Origin: Hymenobacter sp. 5317J-9
GTDB lineage: Bacteria > Bacteroidota > Bacteroidia > Cytophagales > Hymenobacteraceae
Reading direction: 5' to 3'
Length of the DNA stretch: 64,000 bases
Assembly (NCBI RefSeq): GCF_022921075.1
Contig: NZ_CP095050.1
Span: 2,728,001-2,792,000, forward strand
The notes beneath the pieces were generated by a model. The model made no database searches, had not been told where the DNA came from, and was given only the letters and a program-made list of their open reading frames with translations. Made by a program: the position numbers and the translations under genes. This document shows positions 44,349 to 51,779 of the stretch, in pieces. Within the stretch, counting starts at the first letter, position 1. Each line of letters starts with the position of its first letter.

Positions 44349-45452
44349 CTACAACACCAGCCCTAGCACCGCCGCGTGGGCCGCGGCCGTGGCATAGTCG
44401 GCCGCCAGCAGCATGGGCACATCCTCACGGCCCAATTCCTCAATAATCGGCCCGACGAGGGCGGCGCGTTCCGGCACCTGCACGTCGCGGATGTAGATGG
44501 CGCGAATGCGGCCGGGGTGGCGGCGCACTACTTCACGGTAGATGCGTGCGTCTTCCTGGCCGCTGTCGCCGCAGAGCACGAAGGGCAGGGCGGGGTAAGT
44601 GGTGAGGATGTCGTCGATTTCGTGCAGCTTGTGGGCAAAGTGGATGGCGGCCGAGCCCGTGACGCCAGCCGGCACGGGGGCCTTGGGGCGGGCTATGCTG
44701 AGGTCGCGCAGCAGGAGCGGGCCGGCGGGGATTTCGTGCAGCTTCAGGAACTCGGCCAGCAGGTCGTAGAGGTTCCAGGGGCTGCTGCTCACGTAGAAGA
44801 AAGGGTTGTCGGGGCGGTTGCTACGGCCGAGCTGCAGCCGGCGGTAGAACTCGGCCACGCCTTCGAAAGGCTGTTTGGATTGGGCGTTGCTGAAAAGCAC
44901 GCGCCCCAACATCTTCACGATGTTGGTGGCACTGGTCTCGAACACGGTGTCGTCGAGGTCGGAAATCACGCCGAACTCGGCGCCGGGCGGCGGCACCAGC
45001 ACATGGGCGTTGGTGGCAATGGCCTTGGTGGGCAGCTTTAGAAAGGCCGGCAGCCGGGCCACGCGCACCGGCACGGGGTACCAGAGGAAATCATCGGGGG
45101 CGGGCAGGGCCTGCGGCTCGATGACGAGGGTGAAGTAGCCTTCGTCATCGGTGCTCACGAGGTGCTGGCTGCCGTCGGGCAGCTCGGCCACGAGGTCAGC
45201 CGCGGCCACTTCGCGGCTGTTGAAGCGGCGCACCATGCTGCGGAAATTGCGCCAGGGCGAGTCGGTGGCGGTGGCGGCGGTCAGGCCGGGGTCGGCCAGC
45301 AGGCGGCCTTTGATGTAGAACTTGGCAGCGGTGCCGTAGCTGCGGTAGGCGTCGATTTGCAGGGGGCGCAGCCAGCCGCGCCGCGCCGAAAAACGGGTGT
45401 AGAGGTGGTCGGTCCACTCCGAGAGGTTGGACAGGGCATTGGGCAGCTTCAT
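44349..45452 (-). CDS. App1-family phosphatidate phosphatase-like protein
   Basis: The 367-residue protein has the App1/DUF2183 HAD-like catalytic domain in its C-terminal half: ISDLDDTVFETSATNIV (DxDxT), FFYVSSSPWNLYDLLAEFL and LPFVLCGDSGQEDARIY. An N-terminal beta domain contains EGYFTLVIEP. In yeast App1 is a Mg-dependent phosphatidate phosphatase; bacterial homologues are mostly uncharacterised. No signal peptide. Separated by an inverted repeat from the divergent topoisomerase gene. Confidence 0.88.
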   Translation of the reverse strand: MKLPNALSNLSEWTDHLYTRFSARRGWLRPLQIDAYRSYGTAAKFYIKGRLLADPGLTAATATDSPWRNFRSMVRRFNSREVAAADLVAELPDGSQHLVSTDDEGYFTLVIEPQALPAPDDFLWYPVPVRVARLPAFLKLPTKAIATNAHVLVPPPGAEFGVISDLDDTVFETSATNIVKMLGRVLFSNAQSKQPFEGVAEFYRRLQLGRSNRPDNPFFYVSSSPWNLYDLLAEFLKLHEIPAGPLLLRDLSIARPKAPVPAGVTGSAAIHFAHKLHEIDDILTTYPALPFVLCGDSGQEDARIYREVVRRHPGRIRAIYIRDVQVPERAALVGPIIEELGREDVPMLLAADYATAAAHAAVLGLVL

Positions 45453-45559: not shown

Positions 45560-45624
45560 AACAGCCGCGCCGGACACTTTTGCGTAGAAGCTGAACCTTG
45601 AATTCCCGTTCTCTTCTCCGCTTT

Positions 45625-46746
45625 ATGTCCACCGCCACTGCTGCCAATCCCAAAACCCGTAAAAAAACCCTGCTGCCGCAAGACGAGGCGCACATTGTGT
45701 ACAAAGACCCCGCCCGGCAGGCCGAGATGGCCGGTTTGCGCTATGCCACCGACCAAGGCAAGGGCATCAGCCGCAAGCCGACGCGGGCCGGGCATTTCGC
45801 TTACTACGATGCCAAGGGCGAGAAAATAACCGACGAAAAAACGCTAACCCGCATCAATGGCTTCGTAATTCCACCGGCCTGGACCGACGTGTGGATATCA
45901 CCCTCGGCCAACACCCACCTGCAGGTGACGGGCCACGACAACCTGGGCCGCAAGCAGTACCGCTACCACGCGGCCTGGGACGCCATGCGCAGCCTCACCA
46001 AGTTTTCGCGCCTGCGCACCTTCGGCGAAAAGTTGGGCCCGCTGCGCGAGCAGCTCCGCAAAGACCTGAAGCGTCCCGACCTCGACCGCGAGAAAGTGGT
46101 GGCCCTCGTGCTCACGCTCATGGACCAGTCGTTTATCCGCGTCGGCAATAAGGAATACGCCAAGAAAAACGGCAAAACCAAGCCCAGCTACGGCCTGAGC
46201 ACGTTGCAGGACAAGCACGTGGCCATCGACGGCGCCGACGTGCGGTTCAACTTTGTGGGCAAAAAGGGAGTGGCGCACGACGTGACCCTGCACGACGCCC
46301 GCCTGGCCCGCCTGGTGCGCAAGTGCAAGGAGATTCCCGGCCAGCACCTGTTTCAGTACTATTCGGCCGATGGGCAGCGGCACGCGCTGGAATCGGGCGA
46401 CGTGAACGAGTACCTGCAACGCCACACCGGGCTGGCGCTTTCCGCCAAGGACTTCCGCACCTGGGGCGGCACCGTGAAAATGGTGGAATGCCTCGAAGCC
46501 GTGCTGCGCGAAGAACCCGAACTGGCCCCCGAAAAGGTGATAAAAAAGGCCGTGAAGGAAGTGGCCACCGGCCTCGGCAATACGCCCACGGTGTGCTCCA
46601 AATACTACATTCACCCGCAGGTGGTGGAGCTGTTCAAGTCGGGCCAGCTCATTGAATACCTGCGCAAGCACGACGCCGACCCCATGGCCGGCGACCTGTT
46701 CTCGCCCACCGAGCGGCTGGTGCTGAAAATGCTGGACCAGGCCTAA
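45625..46746 (+). CDS. DNA topoisomerase IB
   Basis: A eukaryote/poxvirus-like type IB topoisomerase that relaxes supercoils through a 3'-phosphotyrosine. Recognisable are DEAHIVYKDPARQAEMAGLRYATDQGKGISRKPT (N-domain), FIRVGNKEYAKKNGKTKPSYGLSTL, KYRxR-like KQYRYHAAW, FRTWGGT and the Tyr segment VCSKYYIHPQV near residue 334. Length 373 aa. ATG at 45625; a TTG at 45598 would add nine residues. Bacterial members are common in Bacteroidota chromosomes. Confidence 0.93.
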   Translation: MSTATAANPKTRKKTLLPQDEAHIVYKDPARQAEMAGLRYATDQGKGISRKPTRAGHFAYYDAKGEKITDEKTLTRINGFVIPPAWTDVWISPSANTHLQVTGHDNLGRKQYRYHAAWDAMRSLTKFSRLRTFGEKLGPLREQLRKDLKRPDLDREKVVALVLTLMDQSFIRVGNKEYAKKNGKTKPSYGLSTLQDKHVAIDGADVRFNFVGKKGVAHDVTLHDARLARLVRKCKEIPGQHLFQYYSADGQRHALESGDVNEYLQRHTGLALSAKDFRTWGGTVKMVECLEAVLREEPELAPEKVIKKAVKEVATGLGNTPTVCSKYYIHPQVVELFKSGQLIEYLRKHDADPMAGDLFSPTERLVLKMLDQA

Positions 46747-46757
46747 TTGGTGGCCGG

Positions 46758-48311
46758 CTATTCCTCGGCGGGCTGGTCGTAAGCGTGCTTGGCCGGGGCG
46801 CTGCCCTGGGCAAAGCGCAGGCCGCGGGCACCTTTCGCGGCGCGCAGCTCGTCGGTGCCCGGGCCGCCGTATAGGCGGATTTTGGGTAGGGAAGTGAACG
46901 AAGAGCCGTGTTCCTCCACCACAAAAACGTCGTCGCCGCCCAATCCTTCGAGCTGAATCTGCTTCGTTTCGGCGCGCAGAAAAGTGCGCTGGTAGAGCCG
47001 GCTAGCTGCCTGGCCCTGCGTGCCGGCTTCATATACTGCTACCATGGTTGAGTCGGCGTAGCGATGAATTTCGAACCGCTCGGCCTGGGCCGTGCCGCCA
47101 ATGGTGGGGCGGCGCGCCAGCCGCAGGTACCAGCGGTCGGCCAGGGCGGGGAGCTGGGCGCGTCGGCTTTGAAGGGCAGCCGTGATGCGCGGGCCTTCCA
47201 AAGCATAGGCCGAGGCGGGTAGGCGGCGTAGGGCGCGGGCGACCAGTGTATCGGGCAGGCGCTGTTGCAGAGCCAGGGCAGCGGCCCGAAACTGGGCCCG
47301 CGAAAGCTGATTCAGACCCCGCTCGTCGAGGTATTCCCCGTTGGAAAGCAGGTTTTCCTCGTTGGGAAATCGGGCCGAAAACGTGGTCCAGTGGCGCACG
47401 GCTACGTGCCCGATAAGCCAGCCCAGCACGCCATCGTCGAGGCGGTAAAACACCATGTCGCGGTCCTTGGGCAGGGGCGCAATCTGCGTGCTGCCGCCGG
47501 CCGAAGTGGCCAGCCAGTTCCATTGCCCGGGGTGCCGGTCCCAGTCGCCCAGCCAGGCATCGAGCAATCGCGCCCGCAGCAGCGCCGGCTGGTCGAGGCG
47601 CTGAGCCGGGTTCGTAAACACTTTTTCAAAAGCCTCCTTGCTGCCCAGAATATCGACTTTTTTGCTCTCTGCCACGGGCGAGGAATTTTTTTCTTCCAAA
47701 TAAGCCAGCTGGCCACGGAAGAGCCGCAGCGAGTCGCCCTGAAACGAAGGGTCGTCGGGCCGCACATAAAACAGGCGCGGGGAGGTGTGCGGCACGCCCG
47801 CCGCCGCGGCCAGGGGCGGCACCGTGAGGGCGGCATAAGGATTGGTCGAAGACACGTTGTCGCGCAGCACGTTCACCAGAAAAGTCTTGCGCAGCAGCTT
47901 GGGGGTGGCCCGGCTGGGGTCTTTGTCCACCGTGCGCAGCACATAGGCGCGGCCATCGGGGGCCAGCAGGTTGAGGCTGGTGCTGTTGAAGCCCCCGCCC
48001 ACCTTGCCCGGCCGAAGGCGGTTTTGGGCAAGCTGCAGCACGGGCACCGTGACGGGCGCCGCCCAGGTGGCCCGGTGGTGGCGGCCCACCAGAGCGCCGT
48101 AGAGGCGGCCGTGGCGGGCGTATTGGCGGCCCGCCGTGACGCCCCGCACACTGTCGGCGGTGGCGGGCAGGGGCTGCGTCCGCACGGCATCGGGGCGGGC
48201 GTCGGGCTGAAAGAAGTTCTGGCGGGCGCAGCCGCCAAGCAGGCCGCTCAGCGTTCCAAAAACCAACAGGACTACGGGTAAGCGGGGCAATATCAAGGGT
48301 AAGATTGGCAA
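46758..48311 (-). CDS. Secreted lipoprotein of a triplicated uncharacterised family, copy 1
   Basis: A lipoprotein signal (LSGLLGGC) is followed by RQNFFQPDARPDAVR and a region with WAAPVTVPVLQLAQNRL. Next come VLRTVDKDPSRATPKLLRKT, the conserved VPPLAAAAGVPHTSPRLFYVRPDD, LEEK, then LLDAWLGDWDRHPGQWNW (about residue 256), PLPKDRDMVFYRLDDGVLGW and a C-terminal GGDDVFVVE/LYGGPGTD beta part. 517 aa. Copies 2 and 3 follow the same order. The Lys in VDK, the GDWDRH and the LDDG resemble the Lys / DRH / D motif order of HipA- or Fam20-type kinases, but Asn is missing after DRH. Periplasm- or surface-facing. Function unknown. Confidence 0.8.
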   Translation of the reverse strand: MPILPLILPRLPVVLLVFGTLSGLLGGCARQNFFQPDARPDAVRTQPLPATADSVRGVTAGRQYARHGRLYGALVGRHHRATWAAPVTVPVLQLAQNRLRPGKVGGGFNSTSLNLLAPDGRAYVLRTVDKDPSRATPKLLRKTFLVNVLRDNVSSTNPYAALTVPPLAAAAGVPHTSPRLFYVRPDDPSFQGDSLRLFRGQLAYLEEKNSSPVAESKKVDILGSKEAFEKVFTNPAQRLDQPALLRARLLDAWLGDWDRHPGQWNWLATSAGGSTQIAPLPKDRDMVFYRLDDGVLGWLIGHVAVRHWTTFSARFPNEENLLSNGEYLDERGLNQLSRAQFRAAALALQQRLPDTLVARALRRLPASAYALEGPRITAALQSRRAQLPALADRWYLRLARRPTIGGTAQAERFEIHRYADSTMVAVYEAGTQGQAASRLYQRTFLRAETKQIQLEGLGGDDVFVVEEHGSSFTSLPKIRLYGGPGTDELRAAKGARGLRFAQGSAPAKHAYDQPAEE

Positions 48312-48372
48312 GACGGTCGAGCCTTGAACGAAGGCCTCCCGTAAATGGCTGGTGGGAAAGTGGCCCGCGCGG

Positions 48373-49986
48373 CTAGTCGTCGTTCAGGCGCTCGTAGGCG
48401 CGGTAGCTTTTGCGGGGCAGGCTGGGGCGGCGGCCATTGGCGGCCGTCATGTCGGAATCTTCATCGAACAGGTGCAGGCGCCGGGCGCTGCCGCTCAGCA
48501 GCAGGCGGTCGTGCCCGGCGCCGCCGTAGAGGCGCAGCGGCATGGGCCGGGCCGTGCTCACCGTCGAAACTTCAAACACATCGTCGCCGCCCAGCGCGTC
48601 GAGGCTCAGCTCGTGGGTTTCGCAGGCGTAGTACGTGCGCTGGAAACGCAGGGAATCGCCCGCGTTGTGGCGGGCCAGGGCGGCCGAAAACACGCGCACG
48701 GTGGTTGAGTCCGGGAAGCGCTGCACCACAAACCGCTCGGCCTGGGCCGTGCCGCCCAGCGTGGGCGCGTGGGCCAGGGTGAGGTAAAAAGCATCGGCGG
48801 CGGCGGGCAGGGCGGTGCGGCGGGCCTTTAGGTAGGACGTCAGCCGCGGGCCTTCGAGGGCAAACACGGCCGGCGGCAACCGGTGCATAGCCCGCTCAAG
48901 GAGTGTATCGGGCAGGCGGCGCTGCAAATCGGTGGCCATGCGCCGGAAATCGGCTCGGGTGAGGGCATAAAGGCCCCGCTCGTCAATGAACCGGGACTGC
49001 TTCACCAACCCCGGCACGTAGCCGTAGCTGGCCTTAAAGGTGTGGAACTGCGGCGCGATGAACCGGCGCGCGGCCAGCCACGGCACCAGGCCGTCATCAA
49101 ACCGAAAGTACACCTGGTCGCGGTCTTTGGGTATGGGCTTGTAGCGCACCCGGCCGCCGCGCACCCGGTATGCGGCCCATTCCCATTGGCCTTCGTGCCG
49201 GTCCCAGTCGCCAATCAGCAGGTCGAGGAGGCGTGCCCGCAGAAAGGCGGGCTGGTCGATGGTGTGCGAAGGGTGCTCATACACTTTTTTCAGCATCGAT
49301 TCGCCGCCCAGAAAGTCGGTGGCGCCGGCTAGGTCGGGCGTGCGCGAGGCCAGCACTTCGTACTTCTCTTCCAACAGGGCCAGCTTGCCCCGGAAACGCT
49401 CCGAGCCTTCGCCCAGGCCGGTTTCGTCGGGCCGCACGTACACCAGGCGGGGGCGGGCGTGGGGCACCCCGGCGGCGGCGGCCAGCGGCGGCACCGTGAG
49501 GGCGGCATAGGGATTGGCAGCCGAGGTGGCGTCGCGCACAGCGTTTAGCAAAAACGTGTTGCGCAGCACCTTGGGCAAGGTTTTGCTGGGCTCTTTTTCG
49601 AGGGCGCGCAGGGCAAATTCTCGTTTTTGCGGGCCTTCCAGCGTCATGCTGATGCTTTGGTAGCCGCCGCCCATCTTGCTGGGCCGCAGGCCGCCGGGCA
49701 CGGCCGTGGCCAGGTCAAGCACCGGCGCCGTGACGGGGGCAGCCCACACGTCGCGGTAGTGGCGGCCCCAAAACCAATAGTAAGTGGGCCAGTGCTGGCT
49801 GTAGTGCCGACCCGCGGCGGCCTGCACCGAGTCGGCGCCCGGGGGCAGGGGGGCCGTGCTGCCCGCGCCCACGCGGGCGTCGGGCTGGAAGTAGTCGCGC
49901 CGGGCGCAGCCGGCTTCGCCCAAGCCCAGTAGGGCCAGCAGGCAGGCGGCGGCAGTAGGGAAGGGGCGCAAGAAAGAAAAAGGCAT
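48373..49986 (-). CDS. Secreted lipoprotein of a triplicated uncharacterised family, copy 2
   Basis: 537 residues, lipoprotein signal (LLGLGEAGC), then RRDYFQPDAR, as in copy 1. The body has ALRALEKEPSKTLPKVLRNT, VPPLAAAAGVPHARPRLVYVRPDE, DLLIGDWDRHEGQWEW (about residue 261), IPKDRDQVYFRFDDGLVPW, ERGLYALTRADFRRMATDLQRRLPDTL and a C-terminal DALGGDDVFEV/LYGGAGHD section. Similarity to copy 1 is continuous over the whole length, showing duplication. It lies 61 bp upstream of copy 1 on the same strand, so they may be one operon. Copy 3 is divergent. The motif set is intact. No known enzymatic assignment. Confidence 0.8.
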   Translation of the reverse strand: MPFSFLRPFPTAAACLLALLGLGEAGCARRDYFQPDARVGAGSTAPLPPGADSVQAAAGRHYSQHWPTYYWFWGRHYRDVWAAPVTAPVLDLATAVPGGLRPSKMGGGYQSISMTLEGPQKREFALRALEKEPSKTLPKVLRNTFLLNAVRDATSAANPYAALTVPPLAAAAGVPHARPRLVYVRPDETGLGEGSERFRGKLALLEEKYEVLASRTPDLAGATDFLGGESMLKKVYEHPSHTIDQPAFLRARLLDLLIGDWDRHEGQWEWAAYRVRGGRVRYKPIPKDRDQVYFRFDDGLVPWLAARRFIAPQFHTFKASYGYVPGLVKQSRFIDERGLYALTRADFRRMATDLQRRLPDTLLERAMHRLPPAVFALEGPRLTSYLKARRTALPAAADAFYLTLAHAPTLGGTAQAERFVVQRFPDSTTVRVFSAALARHNAGDSLRFQRTYYACETHELSLDALGGDDVFEVSTVSTARPMPLRLYGGAGHDRLLLSGSARRLHLFDEDSDMTAANGRRPSLPRKSYRAYERLNDD

Positions 49987-50145
49987 CCAGGAAAAAAGGC
50001 AGGAAGTATGCGCCTTTAACGCAACCGCGCGGCAAAAGTCGGCCCGTGGTGGTCAGGAGCACAACCGTAGCGCCGGGGTTTGCAGTATACACGGGCTCAC
50101 ATTTGCTCATTCGACCCGCCCAGCGGCGCAGCGGCCCTGAAAAAA

Positions 50146-51779
50146 ATGCCACGTTTGTTTCGGATGTCTCGCGAAGGGCTGCTACGGGTATGGGGCACGG
50201 CGGCGGGCGCCGCCGCGGCCGTGGGCCTGGGGCTGGCCGGCTGCTCGCACACGGCGCCGCCCGGCAGCGCCCTAGCTCAGTGGGCGCCCGATTCTGCCAC
50301 CGTGAAGCTGGCCGCGGGCCCGCAGTATGCCCGCGGGCCGGTGTGGCGGTTTTTCTGGGGAGCGCACTACCGCAGCCTGTGGGCCACGCCCGTCACGGTG
50401 CCCGTTATTCGGCTGGCGCGGGCCGAGCTCGACAGCCTGACGCCCATGCGGGCCGGCGGTAGCTACCAGAGCCGCACCCTGCGCCTGCGCACCGCCGCCG
50501 GGCACCAGCTGGTGCTGCGCTCCGTGGACAAGGACATGAGCAGGGCCCTGCCCGCCGGCTGGATGCGCAACTGGCTCAGCGGCCTCATGCGCGACCAAAC
50601 CAGTGTGTCGCAGCCCTACGGCGCCTACGTGGCCGCGCCCCTGGCCGAAGCCGCCGGCGTGTACCACGCCAACCCGCGCCTGGTGTACGTGGCCAATGAC
50701 CCCGCTCTGGGCAAGTTTCAGCCCGGCTACGCCAACGCCCTGTACCTGCTGGAAGAGCGGGCCGAGGGCGACCAGGAGCACCAGGCCAGCTTCGGCGGCT
50801 CGCGAGCCATCTTCAACTCGCGCCGCATGCTGGCGGCCCTGCGCCACAGTCCCAGCTACCAGCCCGATGCCCGCGCCTACCTGCGCGCCCGCCTGCTCGA
50901 CATCTGGCTCGGCGACTGGAGCCGGCGCGAGGACCAGTGGCGTTGGGCCAGCTTTCTGGAAGGGGGCGGGGTGGTGTTCCGGCCCATTCCGCGCGACCGG
51001 GACCAAGCTTTTTTTCGGTTCGATGACGGGGTGCTGACGCGGCTGCTGTCGTGGTTTTTGCCCAAGTTTCAGAGTTTTCACGCCACCATCAAGCCTGGTA
51101 GCGTGGAGGGCCTCACCCGCACCGCCCGCGCCCTCGACCGTACCCTGCTGAGCACGCTGACCGCCGAGGACTTTCGGCAGGAAGCCGATTCGCTGCAGCG
51201 GCGCCTTAGCGATGGCGCCATTGCGCGGGCCCTCACGGCCGGCCCCGGGAAACGCAGGCGGTGATTGCCGAGCAGTTGGGACCGGCGCTGCGGGCGCGCC
51301 GGGCGCAGCTGCCGGCCGTGGCCCGCCGCTACTTTGAGCTGCTGGCCGAAGAAGCCTGGGTGCCGGGCACCGACCGCGCCGAGCGGTTTGAGCTGACCGG
51401 CGCCGGACCGGGCCAGCTGCGGCTGCGCGTGCTGGCCATGCGCCAAGCGCGGCCCGACAGCCTGATTTCGGAGCGGGTATACACGCAGCAGGATACCAAA
51501 AAGCTGAGCCTGTACGGCCTAGCCGGCAACGACATCTTCACCATTGACGCTACGGCCGCGCCCGGCATGGCCGTGGCCCTCTATCCTGGCGAAGGTCAGG
51601 ACCAGGTACTGCTGCCAACTGCTGCAAAGGCAGAAGCCGCCAAGCCGCTCGTGCTGTGGTACGGCCAACCGGGCAGCGCCGCCCCCCACCTACCGGGCCT
51701 GACCGAGGAAAAGGACCCCGAGCCCTGGCTCAGCGCCACGGCCGCCGGGTGGCTGCGCCGCTACAATCTACAGGACTAA
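50146..51779 (+). pseudogene. Third family copy, frameshifted near 51250
   Basis: The first frame (50146-51264) starts with a lipoprotein signal (VGLGLAGC) and matches the other copies through LVLRSVDKDMSRALP and GVYHANPRLVYVANDP to SDGAIARALTAGPGKRRR. The rest of the family (AEQLGPALRARRAQLPAVARRYFELL ... LAGNDIFTID) continues in another frame from 51261 to 51779. The break sits in a C/G run (ggccggccccggg). Together the two frames give about 545 residues. The motif is also degenerate (GDWSRRED where copies 1 and 2 have GDWDRH). The GTG of the second frame overlaps the TGA of the first, so two coupled proteins or a sequencing error remain possible. Confidence 0.7.

Follow-up and report, generated by a model that had tools for sequence, protein, structure and literature searches.

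Three genes in a 64,000-nucleotide stretch of the Hymenobacter sp. 5317J-9 genome (contig NZ_CP095050.1, positions 2,728,001 to 2,792,000 of the forward strand; hereafter the window, whose numbering is used for coordinates) encode paralogous proteins. We consider it reasonably probable that these are exported proteins with a kinase fold of the CotH, type II phosphatidylinositol 4-kinase (PI4KII) and HipA type, two of which (copies 1 and 2) likely phosphorylate a substrate in the cell envelope, with the third (copy 3) as a non-catalytic partner. In the mechanism that we propose, copy 2 and its duplicate, copy 1, would be exported, probably lipidated and anchored at the outer membrane, and copy 2 would move phosphate onto the envelope substrate. 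Copies 1 and 2 would retain K131 or R127, E206, D262 and D288/D290 (copy 2 numbering) for phosphoryl transfer. In the clade of copy 3 the catalytic Asp would have been replaced by Ser and the His mostly by Arg, the remaining site being kept, and these proteins would act as non-catalytic regulators of the copy with the Asp-Arg-His (DRH) motif, as Fam20A does for Fam20C.

Results

Paralogy of the three copies

An initial annotation of the region, made from the sequence, had described three paralogous lipoproteins with a kinase-like order of motifs. Copy 1 shares 49% identity with copy 2 across 500 residues (E 4e-152), and copy 2 shares 41% with copy 3 across 325 (E 2e-75); such E-values put the likeness far above what chance would give, and the paralogy is borne out. 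The motifs listed in the annotation are also present, with FQPDAR limited to copies 1 and 2, as it had stated. Its claim of one shared full-length architecture holds for these two copies; copy 3 is split between two reading frames and carries GDWSRR in place of the DRH form, followed by PRDRD. The C-terminal piece of copy 3 still matches the C-terminal part of copy 2 (38% identity over 124 residues, E 4e-16).

Predicted fold of copy 2

An AlphaFold2 model of copy 2, built from a 74-row alignment, has a mean predicted local distance difference test score (pLDDT) of 91.4 and a predicted template modelling score (pTM) of 0.91, and its secondary-structure elements are ordered as in kinases. When the model was compared with 991 chains using VIA-align, the top match was CotH (5jd9; Z 14.8, 256 aligned residues, 4.2 Å), tied with PI4KII (Z 14.6) and followed by CtkA (13.5) and then by PI3K/PIKK and HipA structures (10.4-11.8, HipA itself scoring 10.5-11.1). 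All of the 50 rows listed are, judged by title, kinases of the CotH, PI4KII, CtkA, PI3K and HipA groups, and most of them cover residues ∼86-405 of copy 2. Fam20 is not among these 50 rows, which is no evidence against a likeness to Fam20. In a Foldseek search of the PDB the first rows were HipT, HipA, PI4KII and Rio2 (E 1.8e-3 to 1.0e-2), and the majority of the 50 rows listed were kinases, with DrFam20C1 at row 20. The comparison thus gives strong evidence for a predicted two-lobed protein-kinase-like (PKL) fold in copy 2. The kinase-like fold suggested in the initial annotation is supported, the predicted fold being of the CotH, PI4KII, CtkA and HipA type; a fold unrelated to kinases, which the annotation had named as the outcome that would speak against its idea, was looked for in copy 2, and the model matches kinases at Z up to 14.8.

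Several observations weigh against a kinase fold. Copy 2 has no Foldseek match in the PDB at E ≤0.001, and a few ribosomal entries appear among the 50 rows listed. None of the window proteins (P0001-P0004) has a Pfam kinase match at E up to 1, and at this same limit the models for CotH (PF08757), HipA_C (PF07804) and Fam20C do not match them. Kinase models, CotH included, are likewise absent among the 25 Pfam families listed for 74 family members, whose matches are scattered and reach at best E 0.0016 in one member. A profile of the family searched against the PDB gave as its best match CtkA at just E 0.4. Elsewhere, neither the CotH nor the HipA_C model matches anywhere in the organism's own genome, a phmmer search of P0002 against the PDB returned merely two CobE chains (E 0.03), and the long relative L004 had no PDB match by sequence at E 0.01. 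The Pfam, NCBIfam and PADLOC scans are too weak to rely on for a kinase assignment, and the domain has no Pfam or NCBIfam model in scans of the window proteins or, among the families listed, of the 74 members.

Profile-to-profile comparison was made with home-made alignments of CotH (26 of 30 loci used, after removal of an empty one, a pair of short slices and one read in the wrong frame) and HipA_C (29 of 30 loci used). With hhalign the family aligned to the CotH set at E 0.017 and to the HipA_C set at E 0.06, with D262 placed on the catalytic Asp. Controls on the wider family also show a weak signal: the CotH comparison (E 0.021) was equalled by 1 of 60 column shuffles and gave 12.6 for the reversed alignment versus 24.0 for the real one, and the HipA_C comparison (E 0.18) was equalled by 4 of 60 shuffles, with the reversed alignment (16.4) no worse than the real one (16.6). 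Because the scores are weak, we used these alignments just to name equivalent residues, and the case for kinase kinship from sequence is weak.

These results bear on the explanation that there is no kinase fold and that the predicted model resembles kinases by coincidence. The Foldseek E-values, 1.8e-3 and above, and the lack of a significant kinase match to the sequence profiles are in its favor; a Z of 14.8 over 256 residues, 50 listed rows of one fold class and the order of the conserved residues oppose it, and we regard it as highly improbable.

Conservation of the predicted active site

Conservation was examined in homologues collected by likeness to the window copies. Of 237 open reading frame (ORF) hits in loci L001-L144, we left out 13 own-genome repeats and 6 partial ORFs; the remaining 218 and the three window copies make 221 rows, of which 215 are distinct. 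R127, K131, D152, E206, D260, D288, R289 and D290 are found in all 215. In the copy 2 model R127 sits in strand 123-128 and D152 in helix 145-156. Position 262 is Asp in 149 homologues, Ser in 65 and Gly in 1, and position 264 is His in 152 and Arg in 63. Thus, of the residues whose conservation the initial annotation had singled out, the Lys and the late Asp occur in every homologue (215/215) and DRH is kept in 149.

D262 and Q267, which lies directly before strand 268-275, have the spacing of the catalytic Asp and Asn of PKA (D166 and N171). In CotH, D228Q and D251A are inactive, and the equivalents of PKA D166, N171 and D184 are kept, according to two reports (PMC7821199, PMC12189002). We expect from the model that K131 or R127, together with E206, would contact the nucleotide, that D262 would be the catalytic Asp and that D288/D290 would bind metal.

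Two features of the loop count against this assignment. The place of the loop Asn (267) is occupied by Gln in 212 homologues and by Asn in 3, a replacement that the initial annotation had pointed out, and the invariant Asp of GDWD is D260 rather than D262, so the choice of the catalytic Asp is made from the spacing and the weak profile alignments. A further difficulty is the phosphate donor, because free ATP is not expected in the periplasm.

One alternative is that the fold is a kinase fold with other chemistry, in which both DRH and Ser-type forms bind a nucleotide and move AMP or another group, like SelO or SidJ. Consistent with this idea, D260 is invariant and kept in the Ser-type copies, as are K131, E206, D288, R289 and D290 (215/215), and pseudokinases with alternative reactions have been described (PMC7948968). 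Set against this are the kinase catalytic-loop spacing of D262, Q267 at D+5 and the strand from 268, with which the profile alignments agree, and we consider such chemistry unlikely. Another alternative is that every copy is a dead kinase fold with a structural or binding role in the envelope. The replaced loop Asn would fit a dead fold, no periplasmic donor is known, and DRH has been lost in two groups, namely the Ser-type paralogues including copy 3 (65/215) and one Hymenobacter class of fused proteins described below (21 of 21 examined). However, DRH is kept in 149 of 215 homologues and in all three architectures, and the Lys, the Glu and the Asp-Arg-Asp of 288-290 in all, so that we give this explanation little credence.

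A Ser-type clade paired with DRH proteins

Ser at position 262 is found in copy 3 and 64 other proteins; of these 65, 63 read SRR and 2 SRH. In a maximum-likelihood tree of 72 of the 215 distinct homologues, the 22 Ser-type rows form one side of a branch (support 96/90). Among the stand-alone DRH rows, 20 of 22 fall in one group (99/96), and the fused proteins and the other two make up the remainder of the tree. Two Pontibacter SRH proteins branch first within the Ser-type rows, which suggests that, depending on the root, the Asp was lost before the His. Copy 1 and copy 2 belong to two sister groups of nine Hymenobacter-type rows (support 100/99), and therefore their split is younger than the split from Rufibacter and Pontibacter.

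Gene pairing was examined at 46 stand-alone DRH loci, which came from a DRH-led query. A Ser-type partner is present at 40 of them, divergently oriented at 38 and on the same strand at 2. As a point against a general pairing, 6 of the 46 have no Ser-type protein, although L086 among these may be a split longer gene. The ratio of nonsynonymous to synonymous substitution rates (dN/dS) was 0.083-0.288 in 10 DRH species pairs and 0.075-0.26 in 9 of 10 Ser-type pairs, the tenth being saturated and some synonymous distances being near saturation. These low ratios indicate that the Ser-type proteins are kept by selection despite the loss of the presumed catalytic Asp.

Copy 3 and its orthologues are thus predicted pseudokinases, and we predict a kinase/pseudokinase pair. 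Fam20A, likewise exported and a pseudokinase, activates Fam20C, its paralogue (PMC7948968); by analogy, the Ser-type protein may regulate the neighboring DRH copy.

Predicted export and lipidation

A crude lipobox pattern run over 62 DRH and 43 Ser-type proteins matched 54 and 25 of them, respectively, and part of the misses are plausible lipoboxes that lie outside the pattern. The Ser-type proteins L064, L067 and L106 have no Cys at the lipobox place, and the family is therefore not made up of lipoproteins throughout. Copy 2 reads GEAGC at its lipobox, where the Glu is unusual; the corresponding place in two close relatives is AASGC and AVAGC. The three window copies are probably exported, outer-membrane lipoproteins, with both the lipid anchor and the membrane side being predictions.

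Organization of the locus

On the minus strand, the upstream copy 2 is followed head to tail by copy 1 after 61 bases, and copy 3, which begins 159 bases past copy 2, is divergent on the plus strand (Table 1). The genes are therefore not a single tandem array; of the tandem set of three that had been proposed, the tandem arrangement applies to copies 1 and 2.

The reading frame of copy 3 is broken: it switches near 51245, the two frames overlap at 51240-51264, and the second runs to 51779. Orthologues of copy 3 in other genomes mostly have one open frame, with G005, G012 and L063 also broken or short. The frame break may reflect a recent pseudogene or a sequencing error, and copy 3 may be broken in this genome.

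The C-terminal part of copy 2 (48457-48762), with its GGDDVF and LYGGAGHD motifs, resembles a short beta-roll. It aligns with the stretch that follows the kinase domain in the fused proteins and is barely covered by the structure matches.

Table 1. Features of the kinase-like locus and adjacent genes in the window.
Feature	Position	Strand	Remarks
Copy 1 (P0001), 517 amino acids	46758..48311	-	Lipobox GLLGGC; kinase-like domain with GDWDRH and PKDRD; C-terminal beta part
Copy 2 (P0002), 537 amino acids	48373..49986	-	Lipoprotein-like signal; kinase-like domain (~86-402); C-terminal beta part (~409-510)
Copy 2 C-terminal beta part	48457..48762	-	GGDDVF ... LYGGAGHD
Copy 2 residues 86-402	48781..49731	-	Portion matching CotH, PI4KII and CtkA kinases in the structure comparison
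Copy 2 D288-R289-D290 codons	49117..49125	-	Predicted metal-Asp position, directly after strand 279-286
Copy 2 D262 codon	49201..49203	-	Asp of GDWDRH, in the loop after helix 245-257
Copy 2 E206 codon	49369..49371	-	Invariant; hinge-like strand 202-208
Copy 2 K131 codon	49594..49596	-	Invariant Lys, directly after strand 123-128
Copy 3 N-terminal piece (P0003), 372 amino acids	50146..51264	+	Lipobox GLAGC; kinase-like domain with GDWSRR (predicted pseudokinase)
Copy 3 Ser codon replacing D262	50920..50922	+	In GDWSRR
Copy 3 C-terminal piece (P0004)	51240..51779	+	Other frame; frame shift near 51245
APP1_cat phosphatidate-phosphatase-like gene	44349-45452		
Topoisomerase IB gene	45598-46746		

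Distribution and forms of the family

A 23-member profile was searched in 296 sampled Bacteroidota genomes from 139 genera, and the family was present in 113 of the genomes and 62 of the genera. Named genomes hold at least 582 relatives; the best 80, which were kept, all have Bacteroidota titles save one Rhodothermales metagenome-assembled genome, and the closest named records among the matches listed are from Hymenobacter. The own genome (5.4 Mb) contains two more relatives, L003 and L004, within proteins of 1241 and 1326 amino acids.

By open-frame length the family takes stand-alone forms of ∼430 and ∼500-600 amino acids, a form of ∼860-960 amino acids with a barrel, and a longest form of ∼1200-1400 amino acids with a metallophosphatase domain, the kinase-like domain and then the barrel.

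Relatives fused to a phosphatase domain and a barrel

A model of one long protein (L089, 1194 amino acids; pLDDT 84.2, pTM 0.69) has an uncertain relative placement of its domains. The first part (residues 15-344) matches purple acid phosphatases (Z 28.7 over 267 residues, 3.1 Å). The last (residues 842-1194) matches the barrels of BamA, TamA and Sam50 (Z up to 25.3), and a count of the strands beyond residue 840 gives 16. The middle part corresponds by sequence to the kinase-like domain of the window copies. A sequence profile of 31 fused proteins likewise matched TRAP (6.5e-8) and BamA-type barrels (7.6e-8 and 2.7e-5). Pfam identifies Metallophos and Omp85 (PF01103) in L004 and just a sub-cut-off Metallophos match in L003. 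POTRA domains were neither among the Pfam hits of L003 and L004 nor noticed in the L089 model, no separate POTRA search having been made.

Of the 111 distinct long ORFs that we collected, a few being versions of one gene that differ in length, 100 comprise all three domains; the phosphatase is missing from 10, and the last is a stand-alone protein with a long upstream frame. The metal motifs of purple acid phosphatases (GDxG, GDxxY, GNH, xH and GHxH) form an intact set in 65 of the 100 three-domain ORFs and are altered in 35. The motif sets of both enzyme domains are intact in 65; 14 combine an altered phosphatase with DRH, and both sets are altered in 21. None of the 100 has lost the kinase motif with the phosphatase intact, and all 10 ORFs lacking the phosphatase keep DRH.

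The 21 doubly altered ORFs all belong to a single Hymenobacter class, whose members were retrieved for that reason from 20 genomes and joined with L003 of the own genome. This class comprises L003/L205 (G000:C1, ∼2.38 Mb) and L225-L244, and its own-genome member has PPK1 nearby.

Gene neighborhoods and possible substrates

The neighborhood of the fused gene was examined at 35 named loci, which are the best query matches and include many close relatives, with shorter genes at L086, L101, L102 and L108. Naming each neighbor from one scanned representative per cluster, we found HD-PycTM at 26 of these loci, PPK1 at 17, a SixA-like histidine phosphatase at 16 and an SdiA-regulated/phytase-like protein at 15. 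A tblastn search of 20 stretches from 19 genomes, the own genome being represented twice, gave 15, 3, 4 and 11, respectively. HD-PycTM lies ≤10 kb from the fused gene in 15 of the 19 genomes (0.18 expected under uniform placement). PPK1 lies ≤15 kb from it in 5 of the 19 (0.27 expected, P 9e-6), a P-value that is rough because we chose the distance limits with the coordinates already known and took the genomes to be independent of one another. In the own genome the two PPK1 genes lie ∼3 kb and ∼10 kb from the two fused kinase domains.

The HD-PycTM neighbor is a chromosomal membrane protein with an HD domain and a PycTM region of the Pycsar-effector type, found at L084:3588-4799, L206 and others. 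At G043:C1 ∼2.195-2.199 Mb it lies ∼2-3 kb from PPK1, with the kinase-barrel gene elsewhere in that genome, so HD-PycTM and PPK1 may be linked independently of the kinase-barrel gene.

Around the stand-alone genes (45 loci) the frequent neighbors are topoisomerase IB (33), APP1_cat (29) and an M48 peptidase (22). Ten cluster representatives were scanned to name the neighbors, one for each cluster, and for topoisomerase IB and APP1_cat the window genes were scanned as well. A functional unit with any of these three was given no weight, as they are syntenic genes of unlike functions.

The fused phosphatase domain and the HD-PycTM, PPK1 and SixA-like neighbors suggest a module in the envelope for both the addition and the removal of phosphate. 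The PPK1, SixA-like and APP1_cat neighbors, with the phosphatase domain, hint at phosphate handling and do not name a substrate. In a reading that overlaps with the one we prefer, the proteins would be lipid, glycan or polyphosphate kinases, acting on an envelope lipid, a lipopolysaccharide sugar or a phosphate polymer. The tie between PI4KII and CotH in the structure comparison points this way, as do the PPK1 genes that lie no more than 15 kb from the fused gene in 5 of 19 genomes and occur at 17 of 35 named loci, the APP1_cat phosphatidate-phosphatase gene at 29 of 45 stand-alone loci including the window, and the Fam20 domain of the xylose kinase Fam20B (PMC7948968). Yet most of this is evidence from neighborhood, PPK1 is missing from this 15-kb range in 14 of the 19 genomes, and the topoisomerase IB gene sits between APP1_cat and the kinase-like genes, so that APP1_cat need not share a function with them. 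We regard a non-protein substrate as possible though not probable.

Discussion

Our preferred reading, exported kinase-fold proteins with a non-catalytic partner, places this family close to several known systems. CotH (PF08757; 5jd9) is the top structure match (Z 14.8, 256 residues) and has a coinciding catalytic-Asp position; the window family differs in having no match to the CotH model, a Gln for the loop Asn, and export as lipoproteins or fused to a barrel. PI4KII is tied with CotH (Z 14.6), and its motif DRGNDNW resembles DRHEDQW, but the structure alignment has 10-13% identity, and PI4KII has a lipid substrate and a membrane insert. HipA, HipT and CtkA (Z 10.4-13.5) share the placing of D262 on the catalytic Asp of the Bacteroidota HipA_C set, a weak alignment, whereas the window proteins are predicted to be exported and have no HipA_C match.

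Fam20C and Fam20A offer the parallel of an exported kinase that has a pseudokinase paralogue (PMC7948968). According to that same source, Fam20A lost a metal-binding Glu, whereas the Ser-type proteins lost the catalytic-loop Asp, and the pairing here is known from gene neighborhood (40 of 46 loci). Among Omp85 proteins with an N-terminal enzyme, PlpD is a patatin-Omp85 protein with its enzyme ahead of the barrel. The fused relatives likewise put an enzyme domain before a 16-strand barrel, but theirs are a purple acid phosphatase and a kinase-like domain, and no POTRA was noticed in the model.

The kinase fold itself is already known; the family, the predicted lipoprotein export with a conserved DRH/Ser-type pair, and the phosphatase-kinase-barrel chain were not met in the literature searched. 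Neither an outer-membrane kinase lipoprotein nor a kinase-acid phosphatase-Omp85 chain was found in that literature, which comprised titles and the openings of abstracts, with bioRxiv and most subscription papers outside its coverage. The words "phosphatase" and "kinase" are absent from the Omp85 papers PMC4104836, PMC12045153 and PMC4494059, and these words and "CotH" from PMC12611786. A survey of Legionella kinases reports four new families near the FAM20/CotH group (PMC9758233), and thus new families of the kinase fold are still emerging.

A wider and more speculative picture is of an outer-membrane phosphorylation system of Bacteroidota, in which the kinase domain, often joined in one chain to an opposing purple acid phosphatase and a POTRA-less Omp85 barrel, would be tied to polyphosphate metabolism (PPK1, SixA) and to HD-PycTM. 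In that picture, the lipoprotein/pseudokinase pair of Hymenobacteraceae would be an analogue of Fam20C/Fam20A, and the donor would be an exported nucleotide or derived from polyphosphate. We find this picture doubtful as a whole and offer it tentatively.

To our knowledge, few bacterial kinases act outside the cytoplasm. If active, the family would make phosphorylation in the Bacteroidota envelope testable, would raise the question of its phosphate donor, and would add another example in which a pseudokinase paralogue is paired with an exported kinase.

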